In this document: piece by piece, positions 9,149 through 27,736 of the stretch
Layout of the letters: the number at the start of each line of letters is the position of its first letter
How positions within the stretch are numbered: the first letter of the stretch is position 1
Source of the DNA: Chitinophagales bacterium
Lineage (GTDB): Bacteria; Bacteroidota; Bacteroidia; Chitinophagales; JADIYW01
Reading direction: 5' to 3'
DNA: 64,000 nucleotides
NCBI GenBank assembly: GCA_019694955.1
Contig: JAIBAX010000017.1
Span: 1 to 64,000, forward strand
The notes under the pieces: model-generated
The model's input: the letters and a program-made list of their open reading frames with translations, nothing else
Database searches by the model: none
Told to the model about the DNA's origin: nothing
Made by a program: the position numbers and the translations under genes

Positions 9149-9174
9149 TAAAAAAAGGCATCCGAAGATGCCTT
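9149..9174 (-). terminator. Original tRNA-Glu terminator, now separated from the tRNA
   Basis: On the minus strand the sequence reads AAGGCATC-TTCG-GATGCCTT followed by a run of seven T: an 8-bp stem with a stable UUCG tetraloop. It lies 2 bp outside the left copy of the tRNA-Glu 3'-end repeat (9176-9192), in the position and orientation expected for the terminator of the leftward tRNA-Glu gene. The integrated element now separates the two by about 4.5 kb. Confidence 0.75.
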
Positions 9175-9175
9175 A

Positions 9176-9192
9176 GTAGCCCGTAGGGGAAT
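9176..9192. repeat. Left attachment-site copy (17 bp)
   Basis: GTAGCCCGTAGGGGAAT is identical to 13712-13728, where it forms the 3' end (acceptor stem and half the T arm) of tRNA-Glu. The match ends exactly at this boundary. This is the usual signature of a tyrosine-recombinase element integrated in a tRNA gene. Confidence 0.9.
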
Positions 9193-9249
9193 AAAATAAC
9201 CTTTATAACTTATTGAAATATAATGTTTTAAGCATTGTGTTTGAGTAAT

Positions 9250-9327
9250 GAGTAACAATAGAGTAACAAATTGTGTATAAAAAGGATAAAAAACAACTAA
9301 ACAATAACAAAAACAATGAGTAACAAA
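9250..9327. repeat. Left arm-type repeats of the element (3 copies)
   Basis: GAGTAACAA(A/T) occurs at 9250, 9261 and 9318 in the same direction, the first two 11 bp apart (one helical turn), 58-150 bp inside the left core repeat and upstream of the integrase gene. A matching cluster lies in the right end. This is the arrangement of arm-type binding sites of tyrosine recombinases, or of Xis sites; the third copy, just before the integrase promoter, could also give autoregulation. Confidence 0.65.
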
Positions 9328-9330
9328 ATG

Positions 9331-9338
9331 TATATTTG
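9331..9338 (+). promoter_or_regulatory. Integrase promoter -7 box
   Basis: TATATTTG fits TAnnTTTG exactly. It ends on the GTG at 9338, so that GTG is inside the promoter and the integrase must start at the ATG at 9359. An arm-type repeat (9318-9327) sits directly upstream. Confidence 0.5.
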
Positions 9339-9358
9339 TGAAACAAAATACAACCTAT

Positions 9359-10435
9359 ATGAGTGTTACTTTAAGGAAAAAAGCGAATAGGAATAAAACA
9401 CTTTCTACCTATTATTTGGATATATACCAAAACAATAATAGAACCTATGAATTTTTAAAACACCTTAAACATATTGAAAAACCTAAAAACGCTTTTGAGA
9501 GAGAGCAAAACAAAGAAAGTGAGAAACTGGCAAAACTTATTAAATCTAAAAGAGAACATGAGTTAGAAAGCAACGATTATAATATTACACCAAAGTTTAA
9601 ACAGAAGATTGATTTTATAGCTTTTTTTCAAGACTTCATAAATGCTTACACTAAAAGGGATAAAAGGATTGTAGAGGCTACATTTATAAAATTCAAAGAT
9701 TTTTTAAATGATTGTGAAATTCAACAATTAAATACTAACCAATTAGATGAGAGTATAGTATATGACTTTAAGACATATTTAGAACAAAATCTAAATGGAG
9801 AAAGCCCTGCCAATTATTTCAAAAAATTTAAAATGCTAATAAAAACAGGAGTTAGAAAAAAGATATTTGTAAGCAACCCAGCCCAAGATATTACCATAAA
9901 GAAAAAGGATAGTATAAAAAAGGAGATACTTACAAATGAAGATATACAAATACTTGCCTCCACACCATTAACCAATAATGAGGTAAAAAGGGCTTTTTTA
10001 TTCTCTTTATTTACTGGTTTAAGATATTCAGATATAATAACCCTAAAATGGCAAAATATTGACCTTAAAAATAAATTATTAAAGACAATTCAAGAGAAAA
10101 CTAAAGAGCAAGTAATTATTGAATTACACCAAACAGCGTTACAAATTTTAGGCGATCCAGCCAAAAATACAGACTTTGTTTTTTCTTTACCCTCACATAC
10201 AGCGTGTAATAAAAACTTAAAAAATTGGTGTAAGAAATCCGGCATAAACAAGCATATAACGTGGCATTGTGCAAGACATTCATTTGCTACCAACTTAATA
10301 TTTTATGGTGCTGATGTTAATACAGCGAGTAAATTATTAGGACATAATAGTTTAAGATACACCGAACGTTATACACATATAGTTAATTCACTAAAAGAGA
10401 AAGCAGTAAGCAATTTACCAAATATTAACCTTTAG
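9359..10435 (+). CDS. Tyrosine recombinase/integrase of the element
   Basis: 358 residues from the ATG at 9359. It catalyses integration and excision at the 17-bp att site. The N-terminal part (about 1-80) is a lysine-rich arm-binding domain, 85-190 a SAM-like core-binding domain, and the C-terminal part the catalytic domain. It has the catalytic Arg in FTGLRYSD (near 222), the Lys in the beta-hairpin region IQEKTKEQ, WHCARHSFAT (HxxR, near 302), the second His in LLGHNSLRYT and the tyrosine in TERYTHI (near 337). The set is complete, so the enzyme should be active. It is adjacent to the left att site, as usual. A downstream gene starts 3 nt after its stop. The layout resembles the Bacteroidota 'phage integrase SAM-like' group. 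Confidence 0.92.
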   Translation: MSVTLRKKANRNKTLSTYYLDIYQNNNRTYEFLKHLKHIEKPKNAFEREQNKESEKLAKLIKSKREHELESNDYNITPKFKQKIDFIAFFQDFINAYTKRDKRIVEATFIKFKDFLNDCEIQQLNTNQLDESIVYDFKTYLEQNLNGESPANYFKKFKMLIKTGVRKKIFVSNPAQDITIKKKDSIKKEILTNEDIQILASTPLTNNEVKRAFLFSLFTGLRYSDIITLKWQNIDLKNKLLKTIQEKTKEQVIIELHQTALQILGDPAKNTDFVFSLPSHTACNKNLKNWCKKSGINKHITWHCARHSFATNLIFYGADVNTASKLLGHNSLRYTERYTHIVNSLKEKAVSNLPNINL

Positions 10436-10438
10436 AGT

Positions 10439-11068
10439 ATGGAAAGTGATGGCAAATTCAACAAAAATTTTGTTGTAAATAGAATAAAAGAATATAATAT
10501 AGACTATTTAAACAATTATATTAAAGATAATTGTTTAGATGGAGATGTTAGTAGTTTTTTATTAAATGAATTAGAATTTATGGAAAATAAAATAAAGGAA
10601 AATATAAATTATGGTTTTGGTAAGCAATTATTTCAACACCAAAAAAAAATTATTTATGATTATTGCAAATTAAATAAAATTGATTTAAAAAATGGTTTTA
10701 CACCTCCACAAAATTTAACATTCAATAGTAAATTAATTGATAAACAAATTGACATAATTGTTGATTTAATTAATGATATTAAATTATTTGATATATATGT
10801 TGATAAAACAATTTTCAGCAACTTATTAGATTGCAACTTAAACCAGCCATTAAGTACTAATACAACCAACTTTACTCAACTATTCAATGAATTGAGTATA
10901 AAAAAATTTATTACAAATGAGTATCAATCTATTGTATCTAAAAGTAAATTATTTAAAGGTACAAGAGGTAAATTTATTACCGACAAAAATTTATCTTCTA
11001 CTTTACAAAAAATAGACAAGCATAATGAAGATATTATAAAAATTACTAACATTATTAAAAATCTATAA
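10439..11068 (+). CDS. Unknown 209-aa protein of the element
   Basis: It starts 3 nt after the integrase stop and is probably translated from the same message. The sequence is highly AT-driven (rich in Lys, Asn, Ile), mostly helical with no signal peptide or membrane segment, and no motif I recognise. The C-terminal third (LFNELSIKKFITNEYQSI, FKGTRGKFITDKN) is the best-conserved-looking part and resembles the tail of small helical proteins that follow integrases or transposon genes in Bacteroidota. Composition is even lower in GC than the rest of the element, so it may be a later acquisition and a candidate cargo gene. Function unknown. Confidence 0.65.
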   Translation: MESDGKFNKNFVVNRIKEYNIDYLNNYIKDNCLDGDVSSFLLNELEFMENKIKENINYGFGKQLFQHQKKIIYDYCKLNKIDLKNGFTPPQNLTFNSKLIDKQIDIIVDLINDIKLFDIYVDKTIFSNLLDCNLNQPLSTNTTNFTQLFNELSIKKFITNEYQSIVSKSKLFKGTRGKFITDKNLSSTLQKIDKHNEDIIKITNIIKNL

Positions 11069-11153
11069 TATATTAAAACTTGTATTTTAGTTAGTACTAA
11101 TTAGTACCTAATTCCTACTAACTTTTTACTTTCTATTTCTATTCATTTTTACA

Positions 11154-11171
11154 CTTGTAATTACATACAAG
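11154..11171. promoter_or_regulatory. Palindrome upstream of the HTH gene
   Basis: CTTGTA-ATTACA-TACAAG is a perfect 6-bp inverted repeat with a 6-bp spacer, 45 bp before the start of the HTH/Xis-like gene, in the 148-bp AT-rich gap that separates the two transcription blocks of the element. It is a likely operator, possibly for the HTH protein itself; a GATTTTTG near-match to the -7 box follows directly. Confidence 0.4.
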
Positions 11172-11216
11172 GATTTTTGCAAAAGTCAATTTTTTAATTT
11201 TTAAAATATTGATAAA

Positions 11217-11468
11217 ATGAATTTAGAACAAAAAGAGGTACTTACCCTCAATGAAGTAAGCCAATATACAGGGCTATCCAAAAGCCACATTTACAAGTTA
11301 TGCAGTACTGGAGGCATACCCTTTTATAAGCCTTTCAACAAAGTAAATTACTTTGATAGGCAGGAGATTATAGACTGGTTAAAACAAAACCGAATAGCCA
11401 CCACAAAAGAACTGGAAACTAAAGCCTCCACATTTGTAACCTTAAAAAATGGAGGTGCAAAATGTTAG
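11217..11468 (+). CDS. Excisionase/AlpA-like helix-turn-helix protein
   Basis: 83 residues with an N-terminal winged HTH of the HTH_17/MerR-excisionase kind: LTLNEVSQYTGLSKSHIYKL, then the wing GGIPFYKPFNKVNYFDRQEI and a terminal helix IDWLKQ. Proteins of this type either help excision or regulate replication genes in integrated elements. The end overlaps the next gene by 7 nt, and its last codons supply an unusually good ribosome-binding site (GGAGGTG) for it, so the two are translationally coupled. The motif TTGATAAAAT overlaps its start codon. Confidence 0.85.
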   Translation: MNLEQKEVLTLNEVSQYTGLSKSHIYKLCSTGGIPFYKPFNKVNYFDRQEIIDWLKQNRIATTKELETKASTFVTLKNGGAKC

Positions 11469-12019
11469 TACAATATTTAAAACTGGTAATGTTACCCGAA
11501 GAGGTAAAAGCACAAAATAGCATTAAAGTAGGTGCAATAGTGCCAAGATATGATTGTATTGCAAGGGCTGGAAACGACTATAAAGGACTGGAGGCATTTA
11601 CCAACCACAAAGGGCAAATATATTTTAACCTTACACCAAGTAGGGAATTTATAGAAACCAATGGCAAACGTTATGCAGAATATTGTTTAACTGGAGGTAA
11701 AAGCCTAAATTTTGGTAGTTTATACAAGTTTGTAGATTACCCAAATTTTGCCTATTCATACCCAAATAAAAAGCCATTAATAGGGCAAAAAAGAGAGCCA
11801 AACCCTTTATACCCTTTTGGTAGTGATTTGTATTTAATGCTTACCGATAATGAATATAGCTTTTTTGAAATACTGGTAATTGAGGGAGGTAGAAATTTAG
11901 CCGAACACTATTTACAGCTTTTAATTGAGGGCTATTTTGATACTGAAATACAAAAATTGAGAAATGAGGCAAAACCGATTTATGAGTATGTAGGGCTAAA
12001 TGCTTATAGTAAGTTGTAA
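11462..12019 (+). CDS. Unknown 185-aa protein of the element
   Basis: It starts at the ATG at 11462 inside the end of the HTH gene, preceded by GGAGGTGCAAA, one of the few clear Shine-Dalgarno sites in the window. The protein has no signal peptide or TM helix. An N-terminal beta-rich part (KVGAIVPRYDCIARAGNDYK, GQIYFNLTPSREF) is followed by an aromatic-rich segment and the helical tail EGGRNLAEHYLQLLIEGYFD. Its place between an Xis-like gene and a rolling-circle Rep suggests a role in replication, such as a single-strand binding or accessory protein, but this is guesswork from position. No family recognised. Confidence 0.7.
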   Translation: MLVQYLKLVMLPEEVKAQNSIKVGAIVPRYDCIARAGNDYKGLEAFTNHKGQIYFNLTPSREFIETNGKRYAEYCLTGGKSLNFGSLYKFVDYPNFAYSYPNKKPLIGQKREPNPLYPFGSDLYLMLTDNEYSFFEILVIEGGRNLAEHYLQLLIEGYFDTEIQKLRNEAKPIYEYVGLNAYSKL

Positions 12020-12041
12020 CCATTAACAAATTTTATCAATT

Positions 12042-12983
12042 ATGTATGATACGATTAAATTTTGGTTGCCAAATGAAAGGATAAAAGATAGTGGGTATTT
12101 GCAAAGAGTACCCACACTTTTAACCAATGCTAAAGAAACCTATAAACAAGATACCGGAGAGGTTTATTATACTGGTAGCTTATTGGGAATGAGTGCAAGT
12201 ATTGGAAACGCTGGTATAAGTTTAAAAGGTAGTATTTGCAAAAGCTATCTAAAAGATAATTTCAAAACTCTTACAAGACAAGATACACAAAGAGCCATTG
12301 AGCAAATACAAGACTATACACATTTACCAATATTACAAGCCGATGTAAAGCAAATTGATTTTGCCCAAAATATCATAGTAAGCCAAAGCCCAAATACTTT
12401 TTATAATCTTTTAGGAGAGTGCCACCATTATACAAGATTAGAACAGCCGACAAGTATTTATTATCAAAATTCAATGAGGCAAAAAGTATTTTATAGCAAA
12501 GTAGATGAGGGCAAAGCCAAAGGGCAAATTTTGCCACCTATTTGGGCAAATAAATACATTTTAAGGTATGAGTTAAGATATACAAGTCGATTGCCTCAAC
12601 AATTCAATACAAGCCAAATACAAGCGTTTAATTTATTTGATGAGGCTTTTTATATTGGTATGGTAGAACGCTGGATAAATGAGTATGAAAACATTAATAA
12701 AAACAATTCAATTTTAAACCAAATGAATAGTAAAGCAATAAAAAAGCCAAATGATTATATAATGCAATTAGCGTTAATGAAAATCAATGAAATTGGAATA
12801 AATGGAGTACTGGAGGGTATAGAAGACTTGAAAGCCCAAAACCATTTTAAACACAAAGAATATTACAGCCGATTGAAAGCTGATATTAAAAAACTTTGCA
12901 CTACATACCAACCCGATCAGGCTAAAAGTTTAATAAATGAACTGGATAAAAAAGTAATGCAAGTGAAAGAGTATTACCGATAG
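12042..12983 (+). CDS. Phage/plasmid replication initiator, gpII/X family
   Basis: 313 residues. It resembles the Bacteroidota branch of the filamentous-phage gpII/gpX-like replication initiators (Phage_CRI type), which nick one strand to start rolling-circle replication. Signature segments are LTRQDTQRAIEQIQDYTHLP, VKQIDFAQNII, YTRLEQPTSIYYQN, KVFYSKVDEGKAKG and ILRYELRYTSRLPQQFN. Tyrosines in the last two segments are candidates for the nicking residue; the exact active site cannot be settled by eye. The leader carries ACAAATTTTATCAAT (12026-12040), repeated before the next gene. Its presence means the excised circle could replicate by itself. An orthodox double-strand origin could not be located. 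Confidence 0.85.
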   Translation: MYDTIKFWLPNERIKDSGYLQRVPTLLTNAKETYKQDTGEVYYTGSLLGMSASIGNAGISLKGSICKSYLKDNFKTLTRQDTQRAIEQIQDYTHLPILQADVKQIDFAQNIIVSQSPNTFYNLLGECHHYTRLEQPTSIYYQNSMRQKVFYSKVDEGKAKGQILPPIWANKYILRYELRYTSRLPQQFNTSQIQAFNLFDEAFYIGMVERWINEYENINKNNSILNQMNSKAIKKPNDYIMQLALMKINEIGINGVLEGIEDLKAQNHFKHKEYYSRLKADIKKLCTTYQPDQAKSLINELDKKVMQVKEYYR

Positions 12984-13043
12984 TTGTATTTAGTAAGATG
13001 TACTGATTGACAAATTTTATCAATAATATTAAATAATTACAGA

Positions 13044-13487
13044 ATGAAAGCAGAATATAACAGCAAATTAGATAAAAACATGGAGGCATTTATCCAATTA
13101 AGAATTGAGGGCAAAAGTTTTGATGAGATAGCCACCGAGTTAAAAACCACTAAACAAACCTTAATATGTTGGAATAAAAAGGAACTAATAAGAAATGCAA
13201 TAAATGAGGGCAAGGCATTTAAAATTAATACTCTTATTAAAACCTATCAATTTGATTTTACAAATAGATTAAAAACCTATTTAGAACTTTCAAAAAAAAT
13301 CAATACCGAGTTACTTAATAGAGATTTAACGGAAATAAACACCGATGTACTTTTAAAAATGAGTATTGCAAATGATTCAAGGATAAATGATATGATTCAA
13401 GGCAAAAAAATTGATGTAGGAGAAAGTGAAAATACAACCTATATGAATGATGGAGATAATTTTTTTGAGTTAAAATTTGATGAGTAG
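13044..13487 (+). CDS. HTH protein resembling phage terminase small subunit
   Basis: 147 residues. The N-terminal half holds a homeodomain-like HTH (FIQLRIEGKSFDEIATEL, KTTKQTLICWNKKELI), followed by a long helical region and an acidic, glycine-containing tail (GESENTTYMNDGDNFFEL). This layout is like terminase small subunits or transposase-type HTH proteins. Many phage satellites carry their own TerS to redirect packaging, so the resemblance matters, but it could equally be a simple DNA-binding regulator. It is the last gene before a strong terminator and follows the Rep gene by 60 bp with a shared leader motif. Confidence 0.6.
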   Translation: MKAEYNSKLDKNMEAFIQLRIEGKSFDEIATELKTTKQTLICWNKKELIRNAINEGKAFKINTLIKTYQFDFTNRLKTYLELSKKINTELLNRDLTEINTDVLLKMSIANDSRINDMIQGKKIDVGESENTTYMNDGDNFFELKFDE

Positions 13488-13531
13488 AGAAATAAAAACC
13501 AAAAACAAACCAATAATATGCCAAAATATTG

Positions 13532-13555
13532 AGCCTCCTAAAAGGAGGCTTTTTT
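13532..13555 (+). terminator. Terminator after the element's last gene
   Basis: An 8-bp GC-rich stem AGCCTCCT / AGGAGGCT with an AAA loop, followed by TTTTTATT. Classic intrinsic terminator 45 bp after the TerS-like gene. Confidence 0.85.
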
Positions 13556-13591
13556 ATTAACTGAATTATTTTACTGCCTTAAAATGAAAGT

Positions 13592-13622
13592 GAGTAACAA
13601 ATGAGTAACAAAAAGTAACAAA
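13592..13622. repeat. Right arm-type repeats of the element (3 copies)
   Basis: GAGTAACAAA at 13592 and 13603 and the variant AAGTAACAAA at 13613: 11 and 10 bp apart, same direction as the left-end copies at 9250/9261/9318, about 90-120 bp inside the right core repeat. Confidence 0.65.
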
Positions 13623-13663
13623 TAAAAGCCAAGAATAAACAAATAAAAACTTGATAAAATAAA

Positions 13664-13688
13664 AAAGTCCTTGAAAATCAAGGACTTT
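13664..13688. terminator. Bidirectional terminator supplied to tRNA-Glu by the element
   Basis: Stem AAAGTCCTTGA / TCAAGGACTTT (11 bp) with an AAA loop. On the minus strand it is followed by a T-rich tract, so it can end the leftward tRNA-Glu transcript that lost its own terminator (9149-9174) on integration. On the plus strand it also ends in T residues and can back up the element's terminator. Confidence 0.75.
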
Positions 13689-13711
13689 TTTAGATAAACT
13701 CATGCGGTTTT

Positions 13712-13728
13712 GTAGCCCGTAGGGGAAT
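13712..13728. repeat. Right attachment-site copy (17 bp, within tRNA-Glu)
   Basis: Identical to 9176-9192; it covers the 3' acceptor strand, discriminator base and part of the T arm of tRNA-Glu. The tRNA remains intact at this end. Confidence 0.9.
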
Positions 13729-13784
13729 CGAACCCCTCTTACCAGAATGAAAATCTGGTGTCCTAACCGATAGACGAACGGGCC
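13713..13784 (-). tRNA. tRNA-Glu (anticodon TTC)
   Basis: 72 nt on the minus strand, starting GGCCCGT and ending ACGGGCT plus discriminator A; CCA is not encoded in full. The anticodon stem CCAGA/TCTGG holds the loop TTTTCAT, giving anticodon TTC. The T arm GAGGGGTTCGATTCCCC is standard. It is the integration target of the 4.5-kb element to its left. Confidence 0.95.
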
Positions 13785-27732: not shown

Positions 27733-27736
27733 TTTG

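Follow-up and report, generated by a model that had tools for sequence, protein, structure and literature searches.

The element described here occupies positions 9176-13728 of the window (the whole 64-kb stretch of DNA that was analysed). It is a complete integrative element of 4,536 bp lying between two exact 17-bp copies of a tRNA-Glu 3' end, and it carries six genes, none of them for capsid, tail or large terminase, as is also the case in its relatives. The features of the locus are the following:

9150..9174, minus strand: terminator (hairpin and T-run), originally 3' of tRNA-Glu, now split from the tRNA and just outside the element
9176..9192, no strand: left attachment repeat GTAGCCCGTAGGGGAAT
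9249..9327, plus strand: left group of putative arm-type GAGTAACAA sites (9250, 9261, 9318)
9359..10435, plus strand: tyrosine integrase (PF00589 1.5e-27, PF13102, PF17293; R, HxxR, H and Y motifs in the ORF)
10439..11068, plus strand: 209-aa protein (GC 0.20) in a variable slot between integrase and HTH
11172..11187, plus strand: palindrome/hairpin GATTTTTGCAAAAGTC ahead of the HTH operon, recognised by position and covariation across related elements
11217..11468, plus strand: Xis/AlpA-like helix-turn-helix (HTH) protein (PF12728 3e-12, TIGR01764 2e-8, phrog_25262 9e-23)
11462..12019, plus strand: 185-aa conserved core protein overlapping the HTH gene (alignment A7 of 15 relatives)
12023..12039, no strand: palindrome TTAACAAATTTTATCAA before rep, from matches in the 64 kb and in relatives
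12042..12983, plus strand: rolling-circle replication initiator (Rep), gpII/X type (Phage_CRI, PF05144 3.8e-16)
13007..13023, no strand: palindrome TTGACAAATTTTATCAA before the last gene, from the same palindrome comparison
13044..13487, plus strand: TerS-like HTH protein, encoded by the operon's last gene (phrog_2538 TerS, E=0.005)
13532..13556, plus strand: terminator at the end of the element's operon, seen in the letters as a GCCTCC hairpin with a T-run
13592..13622, plus strand: right group of putative arm-type GAGTAACAA sites (13592, 13603)
13660..13692, minus strand: element-supplied terminator for the tRNA transcript (15-nt perfect inverted repeat)
13712..13728, no strand: right attachment repeat, formed by the final 17 nt of tRNA-Glu, an exact match to 9176-9192
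13712..13784, minus strand: tRNA-Glu(ttc), integration target, intact (ARAGORN; Rfam RF00005)

The earlier note had placed the limits of the unit at a perfect 17-bp repeat of the tRNA-Glu 3' end, and several features agree with these bounds. Equal base frequencies being assumed, the probability that a given 17-mer occurs again by chance in some 4.5 kb is near 3e-7, and the right copy of GTAGCCCGTAGGGGAAT forms the 3' end of the tRNA gene, which alone scored above the gathering threshold in the Rfam scan. As regards the terminator at 9150-9174, its sequence reappears over 28-47 nt downstream of other tRNA genes in the lineage (tRNA-Asp in L030, tRNA-Cys in L017), relatives have terminators at the matching position, and when the two flanks are joined, an intact tRNA-Glu with the terminator behind it is obtained. 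Moreover, GC content is 0.28 within the element against 0.36 and 0.43 outside, and GAGTAACAA occurs five times on the plus strand of the window, each time at one of the element ends, in what is putatively the layout of integrase arm sites; one further copy is found on the minus strand, at 27734. The empty site is also represented, since in 11 relatives from the same bacterial family tRNA-Glu and GAPDH are neighbours and no element is present. Insertion at the 3' end of tRNA-Glu, adjoining the element's own tyrosine integrase gene, can be read directly from the letters.

The integrase, the Xis-like HTH protein and the gpII/X-type Rep, all three named in the earlier note, were recovered as such by profile searches. 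The integrase is 62% identical to that of a sister element likewise inserted in tRNA-Glu (L048), and the HTH protein, which also matches PF05930 (2e-4), is 87-88% identical in L045-L047. In most related elements a palindrome of the GATTTTTGCAAAAGTC type has its centre 34-37 nt ahead of the HTH start; the sequences differ while staying self-complementary, with a covariation score of 1.19 versus 0.27 for shuffled alignments. The stretch 11140-11216 and the TTGACAAATTTTATCAA sites are the leading candidates for an origin or operator.

The 209-aa protein found no match in Pfam, PHROG, NCBIfam or PADLOC. The proteins in this slot share a C-terminal domain, joined to a variable N-terminus, in 10 of 15 related elements, and this domain was not detected in the window's protein, which is a candidate regulator, helper sensor or cargo. 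A defence function of the slot was considered and rejected, no PADLOC match above chance being obtained for the 11 proteins scanned. An RteC-type regulator is likewise unsupported by sequence, because the reciprocal HMM matches were weak (E about 0.002 and weaker) and the hhalign probability was 0.8%. In another element (L208), an RteC-like gene does lie between the integrase and a small downstream gene.

The 185-aa protein is modelled by AlphaFold with a pLDDT of 82.7, and its fold gave no convincing match in PDB, BFVD or VIA-align (every match had a TM under 0.3 or a Z under 5). The palindrome TTAACAAATTTTATCAA has only two matches at up to 3 mismatches in the 64 kb, both inside the element, and several relatives, too, have palindromes of this type ahead of rep and of the last gene. 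As for Rep, Y151, K153 and Y215 are invariant in a ten-sequence alignment, and the gene is present in a single copy in the host genome. Relatives occur in 9 of the 395 genomes of the class, its own genome counted. Neither the 50,697 phage records nor the viral contigs (IMG/VR) contained a match, the comparison with plasmids gave one Parabacteroides record (24%), and the Rep profile had no usable match among the sequences of solved structures. Collections of viral contigs that are assembled around hallmark genes would pass over elements of this sort. The element's own replication module is a Phage_CRI Rep, whereas PICIs usually have one of the primase type.

About 12 other elements from Bacteroidota, most of them with defined bounds and 4.5-6.7 kb in length, show the order integrase, variable protein, Xis-like HTH, 185-aa protein, Phage_CRI Rep and small DNA-binding protein. 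Their sites are tRNA-Glu (L048), the 3' end of mnmE (L045, L047, L050, L051, L057, L058), tRNA-Leu (L053-L055) and, in one member only, a CRISPR repeat (L056). L054 comes from a cultured strain, Pontibacter roseus DSM 17521. The closeness of some members is illustrated by L047, with 69% identity to the window's element in Rep and 88% in the HTH protein. Furthermore, a contig from a viral collection (L063) carries integrase, variable protein, HTH, an AAA helicase, a DUF6371 protein and a TerS at 73%, which is the same plan with another, helicase/primase-like replication module. The elements constitute a previously unnamed family, with an integrase, a rolling-circle Rep and, in most members, a protein of phage DNA packaging, and without capsid genes.

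The most informative position of the family is the last gene. For L048, L049 and L050, relatives of this gene are encoded in 445 of 600 viral stretches that matched the pattern, and a large terminase (Pfam Terminase_3, Terminase_6N) lies downstream in 78 of the 80 viral loci kept. The last gene of L047 is up to 70% identical to viral genes, with a large terminase directly downstream in all five loci; that of L056 is an Sf6 TerS (PF20901, 4e-18), and relatives of those of L051 and L052 adjoin a large terminase in most of eight loci. Because these viral relatives stand directly upstream of a large terminase, the gene is identified as a phage terminase small subunit (TerS) in several sister elements, and the slot is filled by unrelated TerS families from one element to another. 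The last genes of L046 and L048 had no match in phage records, so that the phage relatives are known from metagenomic viral contigs alone. The Pontibacter members have no recognisable TerS.

In the window itself the picture is fainter, and the TerS-like label of the earlier note stands in part. The HTH is present, and the best structural match of this part is the phage protein 2ao9 (Z 7.7). The phrog_2538 match, at the E-value listed above, is weak; the E-values in relatives L045 and L046 are 4e-4 and 8e-5. The protein had no match in phages or viral contigs, and outside the family its relatives in genomes are TetR-type HTHs only, so the gene is not clearly a TerS; the window's own last gene may be called weakly TerS-like. 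A TerS or other gene redirecting packaging is established by gene context in L047 and L048-L050 and by Pfam in L056; in the window its only signs are weak similarities of profile and fold.

Taken as a whole, the element is probably a minimal PICI-like phage satellite. Since the family has TerS in most members and no capsid genes, its most likely means of spread is to take over the particles of infecting phages, and the viral large-terminase context of the sister TerS genes suggests that it works like a PICI or PICMI satellite. When a tailed phage infects the cell, a 4.5-kb circle would be excised by the integrase together with the Xis-like HTH, and Rep would replicate this circle by the rolling-circle mode into concatemers. 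The TerS-like protein would then bind the element DNA and deliver it to the large terminase and proheads of the helper, and the resulting particles would inject it into new cells, where it would reintegrate. Packaging into a helper tailed phage is here deduced from gene content. The protein between integrase and HTH would probably be a regulator, sensing the helper or controlling the HTH operon, and exchange of the TerS gene would adapt the element to different helpers. Against this reading count the weak TerS likeness of the window's last gene, the Pontibacter members with no recognisable TerS, the lack of phage matches to Rep and a host genome without match to Terminase_3 or Terminase_6N, the two large-terminase families searched; owing to this last result, no resident helper was found.

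Other explanations were weighed against the satellite. A small integrative plasmid, already proposed in the earlier note, would excise, replicate as a rolling circle and reintegrate without packaging, its last gene being a copy-number or transcription regulator. Integrase, Xis-like HTH and rolling-circle Rep do match the pSAM2-type plan, in which integrative elements combine Int, Xis and a rolling-circle Rep, and the last gene in the window encodes, at best, an HTH protein of a generic kind. The element has no transfer gene, however, and the sister slot holds unmistakable phage TerS of several unrelated families, for which a plasmid has no need; this reading leaves the repeated capture of TerS unexplained and is considered unlikely. 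An integrative mobilizable element, with Rep as relaxase and the circle moved by a conjugative helper, has precedent, since some Rep_trans-type initiators are relaxases in Gram-positive mobilizable elements and small mobilizable elements are common in Bacteroidota. It is nonetheless very unlikely, as Pfam and NCBIfam gave no MOB-family relaxase or coupling protein and TerS genes are out of keeping with conjugation; Rep itself might conceivably act as a relaxase.

Of the phage or filamentous-phage satellite put forward in the earlier note, the first half is favoured by the sister TerS genes and the lack of structural genes. A satellite that travels in single-stranded form in the particles of a filamentous phage, or of another ssDNA phage, would account for a Rep of the gpII/X type, as used by filamentous phages, but TerS is the partner of the large terminase of dsDNA tailed phages, the element has no coat, Zot-like or assembly gene, and Rep is unmatched among the phage sequences searched; this origin is highly improbable. 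Finally, six genes are unusually few, as might be expected if a larger prophage or conjugative element had lost the rest and left a remnant. Against this stand the constant order, the intact genes and the defined ends across many genomes and in sites of four kinds. No larger prophage or other larger element with this order was found among the recurrences, and the remnant reading, largely refuted, is improbable in the extreme. Both refuting outcomes named in the earlier note were thus checked with a result favourable to the element, since the order is met with in small units with defined ends and the unoccupied site exists in relatives.

The satellite reading can be extended, with rather less assurance and slightly on the favourable side of even, to a Bacteroidota satellite family of 4.5-6.7 kb with a gpII-type rolling-circle Rep, in which unrelated TerS genes would be swapped as plug-in modules of helper specificity, and whose CRISPR-repeat member would interrupt a host immune array. 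No description of Bacteroidota phage satellites of this kind was found in the searchable literature. The family would constitute a natural experiment on the choice of helper by a satellite: closely related cores carry different TerS genes, and therefore TerS exchange and helper range are directly testable, while candidate helpers can be named for the sister elements because their TerS relatives sit in identifiable tailed-phage contigs.

Among known systems, the Inovirus gpII/X replication module shares the Phage_CRI family (PF05144) with Rep, whereas the element's genes include no coat, Zot or assembly gene of filamentous phages (Pfam, PHROG). The NBU-type mobilizable elements of Bacteroides resemble the family in their Bacteroidota host, tyrosine integrase and site-specific integration, and differ in having a mobilization relaxase where the family has Phage_CRI Rep and TerS. 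The pSAM2-type AICEs (actinobacterial integrative elements) share Int, Xis, rolling-circle Rep and integration in tRNA genes, but the family lacks their FtsK-like transfer gene (no FtsK/TraB-like domain was found in the six proteins by Pfam or NCBIfam) and has TerS in sister elements. The PICIs and SaPIs share with the family an integrase, an excision/regulatory HTH, a replication gene, a TerS of their own (here in sister elements) that would redirect helper packaging, and the lack of structural genes. The family differs from them in its rolling-circle Rep instead of a primase/helicase, in the lack of a recognisable Stl repressor or capsid-size gene, and in a size a third to half of the usual one.

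The phage-inducible chromosomal minimalist islands (PICMI) of Vibrionaceae are likewise very small, with two 17-bp direct repeats, an integrase, an AlpA-type HTH, a replication gene and no capsid-remodelling genes, and their rolling-circle concatemers are packaged in full-size helper particles (PMC10803314), a mode that the present family would share. PICMI115, of 6.1 kb, was ranked among the smallest by its authors (PMC10803314), and the element of the window, if a satellite, would be smaller, with 4.5 kb and six genes. PICMI is inserted at fis, replicates with a primase and apparently depends on a packaging motif of its own DNA (PMC10803314), whereas the Bacteroidota family occupies tRNA-Glu, mnmE, tRNA-Leu or a CRISPR repeat, replicates by a gpII-type Rep (no DUF3987/DUF5906 primase is present among the six proteins of the element) and, in most members, carries a TerS.

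The integrated unit proposed earlier at 9176-13728 is real, as indicated by its 17-bp repeats, the tRNA-Glu end, a displaced terminator and relatives free of the element. The annotation of the region also bears out the gene content first described, namely an integrase, a Xis-like HTH protein, a Phage_CRI Rep and two proteins without assignment:

9150-9174, tRNA-type terminator, left of the left repeat copy
9176-9192 and again 13712-13728, 17-bp repeat GTAGCCCGTAGGGGAAT
9359-10435, integrase (PF00589, 1.5e-27)
10439-11068, 209-aa protein without assignment, after the integrase and before the HTH gene
11172-11187, palindrome upstream of the HTH gene
after the 209-aa protein, Xis/AlpA-type HTH protein, 83 aa
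between HTH and Rep, 185-aa protein without assignment
12023-12039 and 13007-13023, palindromes of the form TTGACAAATTTTRTCAA
after the 185-aa protein, Rep, 313 aa (Phage_CRI, PF05144, 3.8e-16)
13044-13487, last gene, 147-aa HTH protein with weak similarity to phage terminase small subunits (TerS)
13712-13784, minus strand, intact tRNA-Glu, its 3' end being the right repeat copy

The sequence of the 9150-9174 terminator is also found after tRNA-Asp in the same genome and after tRNA-Cys in a relative, and joining the flanks in silico places it directly after tRNA-Glu. Moreover, 11 relatives of the same family carry tRNA-Glu adjoining GAPDH without the element, in most cases with a terminator immediately 3' of the tRNA. 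The five plus-strand copies of GAGTAACAA in the 64-kb window are all confined to the two element ends, a placement that would be expected of arm-type integrase sites, for which it is a candidate. The GC content of the element is 0.28 (flanks, 0.36 and 0.43), and the host genome holds a single copy of Rep.

Of 395 genomes in the class, 9 encode a relative of Rep, a count that includes the genome of the window itself. In the GTDB-based collection, relatives occur at 14 named loci, among them Chitinophagales MAGs with 71-73% and Pontibacter with 41-42% identity to the window protein. By scripted annotation, nearly all these loci repeat the order integrase, variable protein, HTH, 185-aa protein, Rep and small gene, a recurrence which the earlier note had proposed to look for; judging by the annotated flanks, none lies within a larger prophage. 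The ends could be fixed for many members. L048 also lies in tRNA-Glu (13-bp form of the GTAGCCCGTAGGGGAAT repeat, 4,935 bp between repeats), L045 at the mnmE 3' end (exact 15-bp repeat, 4,826 bp), and L047, L050, L051, L057 and L058 likewise at the mnmE 3' end, their repeats having 1-3 mismatches in 18 and their size being about 4.6-6.7 kb. The Pontibacter members L053-L055 occupy tRNA-Leu, are about 8-10 kb long and contain extra genes, acyltransferase-like and others; no recognisable TerS was found in them. A further member, L056:4596-10322 (JAHBTI010000009.1, Bacteroidetes MAG ACE_BAC10), is located within one CRISPR repeat of an array adjoined by Cas1 and Cas2. The 47-nt repeat has its first 18 nt on one side of the element and its last 36 nt on the other, the two pieces sharing 7 bp (CTTTCAA); the spacers on both sides are exactly 30 nt each, and the repeat seems to be the attachment site. 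Another locus, L040 (G339:C21:63000-82000), has genes for an Abi-type-like, a DNA methyltransferase-like and an ATPase-like protein, possibly defence cargo, beside those of a distant Rep and HTH, as judged from reading protein starts only.

Between the window and L045/L046, identity is 87-88% for HTH, 71-73% for Rep and 59-70% for the last gene, while the integrases of the window and L045 share only about 32%; with L048, at the same tRNA-Glu site, the integrase is 62% and Rep 49% identical. Integration and core modules have been swapped among elements.

The nature of the last gene is central to the reading as a phage satellite. Viral contigs encode at least 445 relatives of the type shared by L048, L049 and L050, of which the best 80 are 51-73% identical, and in 78 of the 80 kept viral loci a large terminase follows downstream, nearly always less than 200 bases away; tested representatives matched Terminase_3 and Terminase_6N in Pfam. 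The last gene of L047 is of another kind; its viral relatives, with identities of up to 70%, are located upstream of a large terminase gene in viral loci L155-L159. The last gene of L056 matches Sf6_terminase (PF20901, 4e-18), and that of L059 carries DUF5681. Of eight viral loci with relatives of the L051/L052 gene, most have a gene resembling a large terminase next to the relative. Several unrelated TerS families are therefore found in the one slot after Rep, and this is the decisive evidence for the satellite reading. A satellite-like element of the same plan, L063 (IMGVR_UViG_3300042868_012912), was observed at a contig end, with the order integrase, 314-aa protein, HTH, AAA_25 helicase, DUF6371 zinc-ribbon protein and TerS, the latter 73% identical to that of L048.

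The window gene, with those of L045 and L046, represents a further type in this slot. The TerS-like HTH label given to it holds as regards the HTH, its own TerS match being weak: E-values for phrog_2538 are 0.005 in the window, then 4e-4 and 8e-5 in L045 and L046, and phrog_309 reaches 4e-5 in L046. Its structural model is weak (pLDDT 62), the best match being the phage HTH protein 2ao9 (Z 7.7 over 56 residues); three TerS structures from phages also matched (Z 5.2-5.5), amid other HTH proteins. Profile and fold alone would not prove a TerS; the position in the slot carries most weight.

Regarding regulation, the proteins encoded between integrase and HTH (window 10439-11068; L045, L046, L048, L050-L056) combine a common C-terminal domain with a differing N-terminal part in 10 of 15 elements, and because of this shared domain they are, by sequence, something other than random cargo. 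A regulator with an exchangeable sensor part would fit; the window's 209-aa protein does not match the profile of the common domain. Resemblance to RteC amounts to weak hints in this group.

The palindrome upstream of HTH recurs in most elements (L045, L046, L048, L051-L055, L057 and L058), centred 34-37 nt before the HTH start, and is closer in L053 because of the start chosen there. Its sequence varies while self-complementarity is kept: across 11 elements, 44 of 44 pair cells hold standard pairs, with both sides changed in 18. The covariation score, 1.19 vs 0.27 shuffled, is strong, with G-U type exceptions, and its shuffle controls are biased by the choice of palindromes by eye before counting; the near-constant distance to the HTH start is independent evidence. 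Possible roles of the palindrome are those of an operator, of a hairpin in an RNA leader or of an origin component. In the window as in several relatives (L045:7226, 8207; L047:7982, 8966), palindromes of the form TTGACAAATTTTRTCAA precede both rep and the last gene.

The earlier note had left a choice between a phage satellite, a filamentous-phage satellite and a small integrative plasmid; for the family, the phage satellite is now the probable reading, and the filamentous version was not upheld. The sequence itself shows the integration, the gene content, the existence of a family and the TerS identity in sister elements. Beyond this, we infer a cycle in which the integrase and Xis-like HTH would excise the element, Rep would make concatemers by rolling-circle replication, the element's TerS would recognise its DNA and the helper's large terminase would fill helper proheads with it, injection into a new cell being followed by reintegration. 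The host genome has no match to Terminase_3 or Terminase_6N, the two families searched, so the likely helper is a phage that is virulent or, at the least, not resident in the host; the viral contigs with TerS relatives of the L048-L050 and L047 types indicate the phage groups in which to search for helpers of the sister elements. Such satellites in Bacteroidota were not found described in the literature searched, and their novelty is provisional because subscription journals were mostly outside that scope. The proposed scheme is the same as that of the phage-inducible satellites PICMI and PICI, and a virulent or non-resident helper likewise applies to PICMI. PICMI115 (6,110 bp) is reported to use rolling-circle replication and concatemer packaging and, like the window element, is bounded by 17-bp repeats (PMC10803314).
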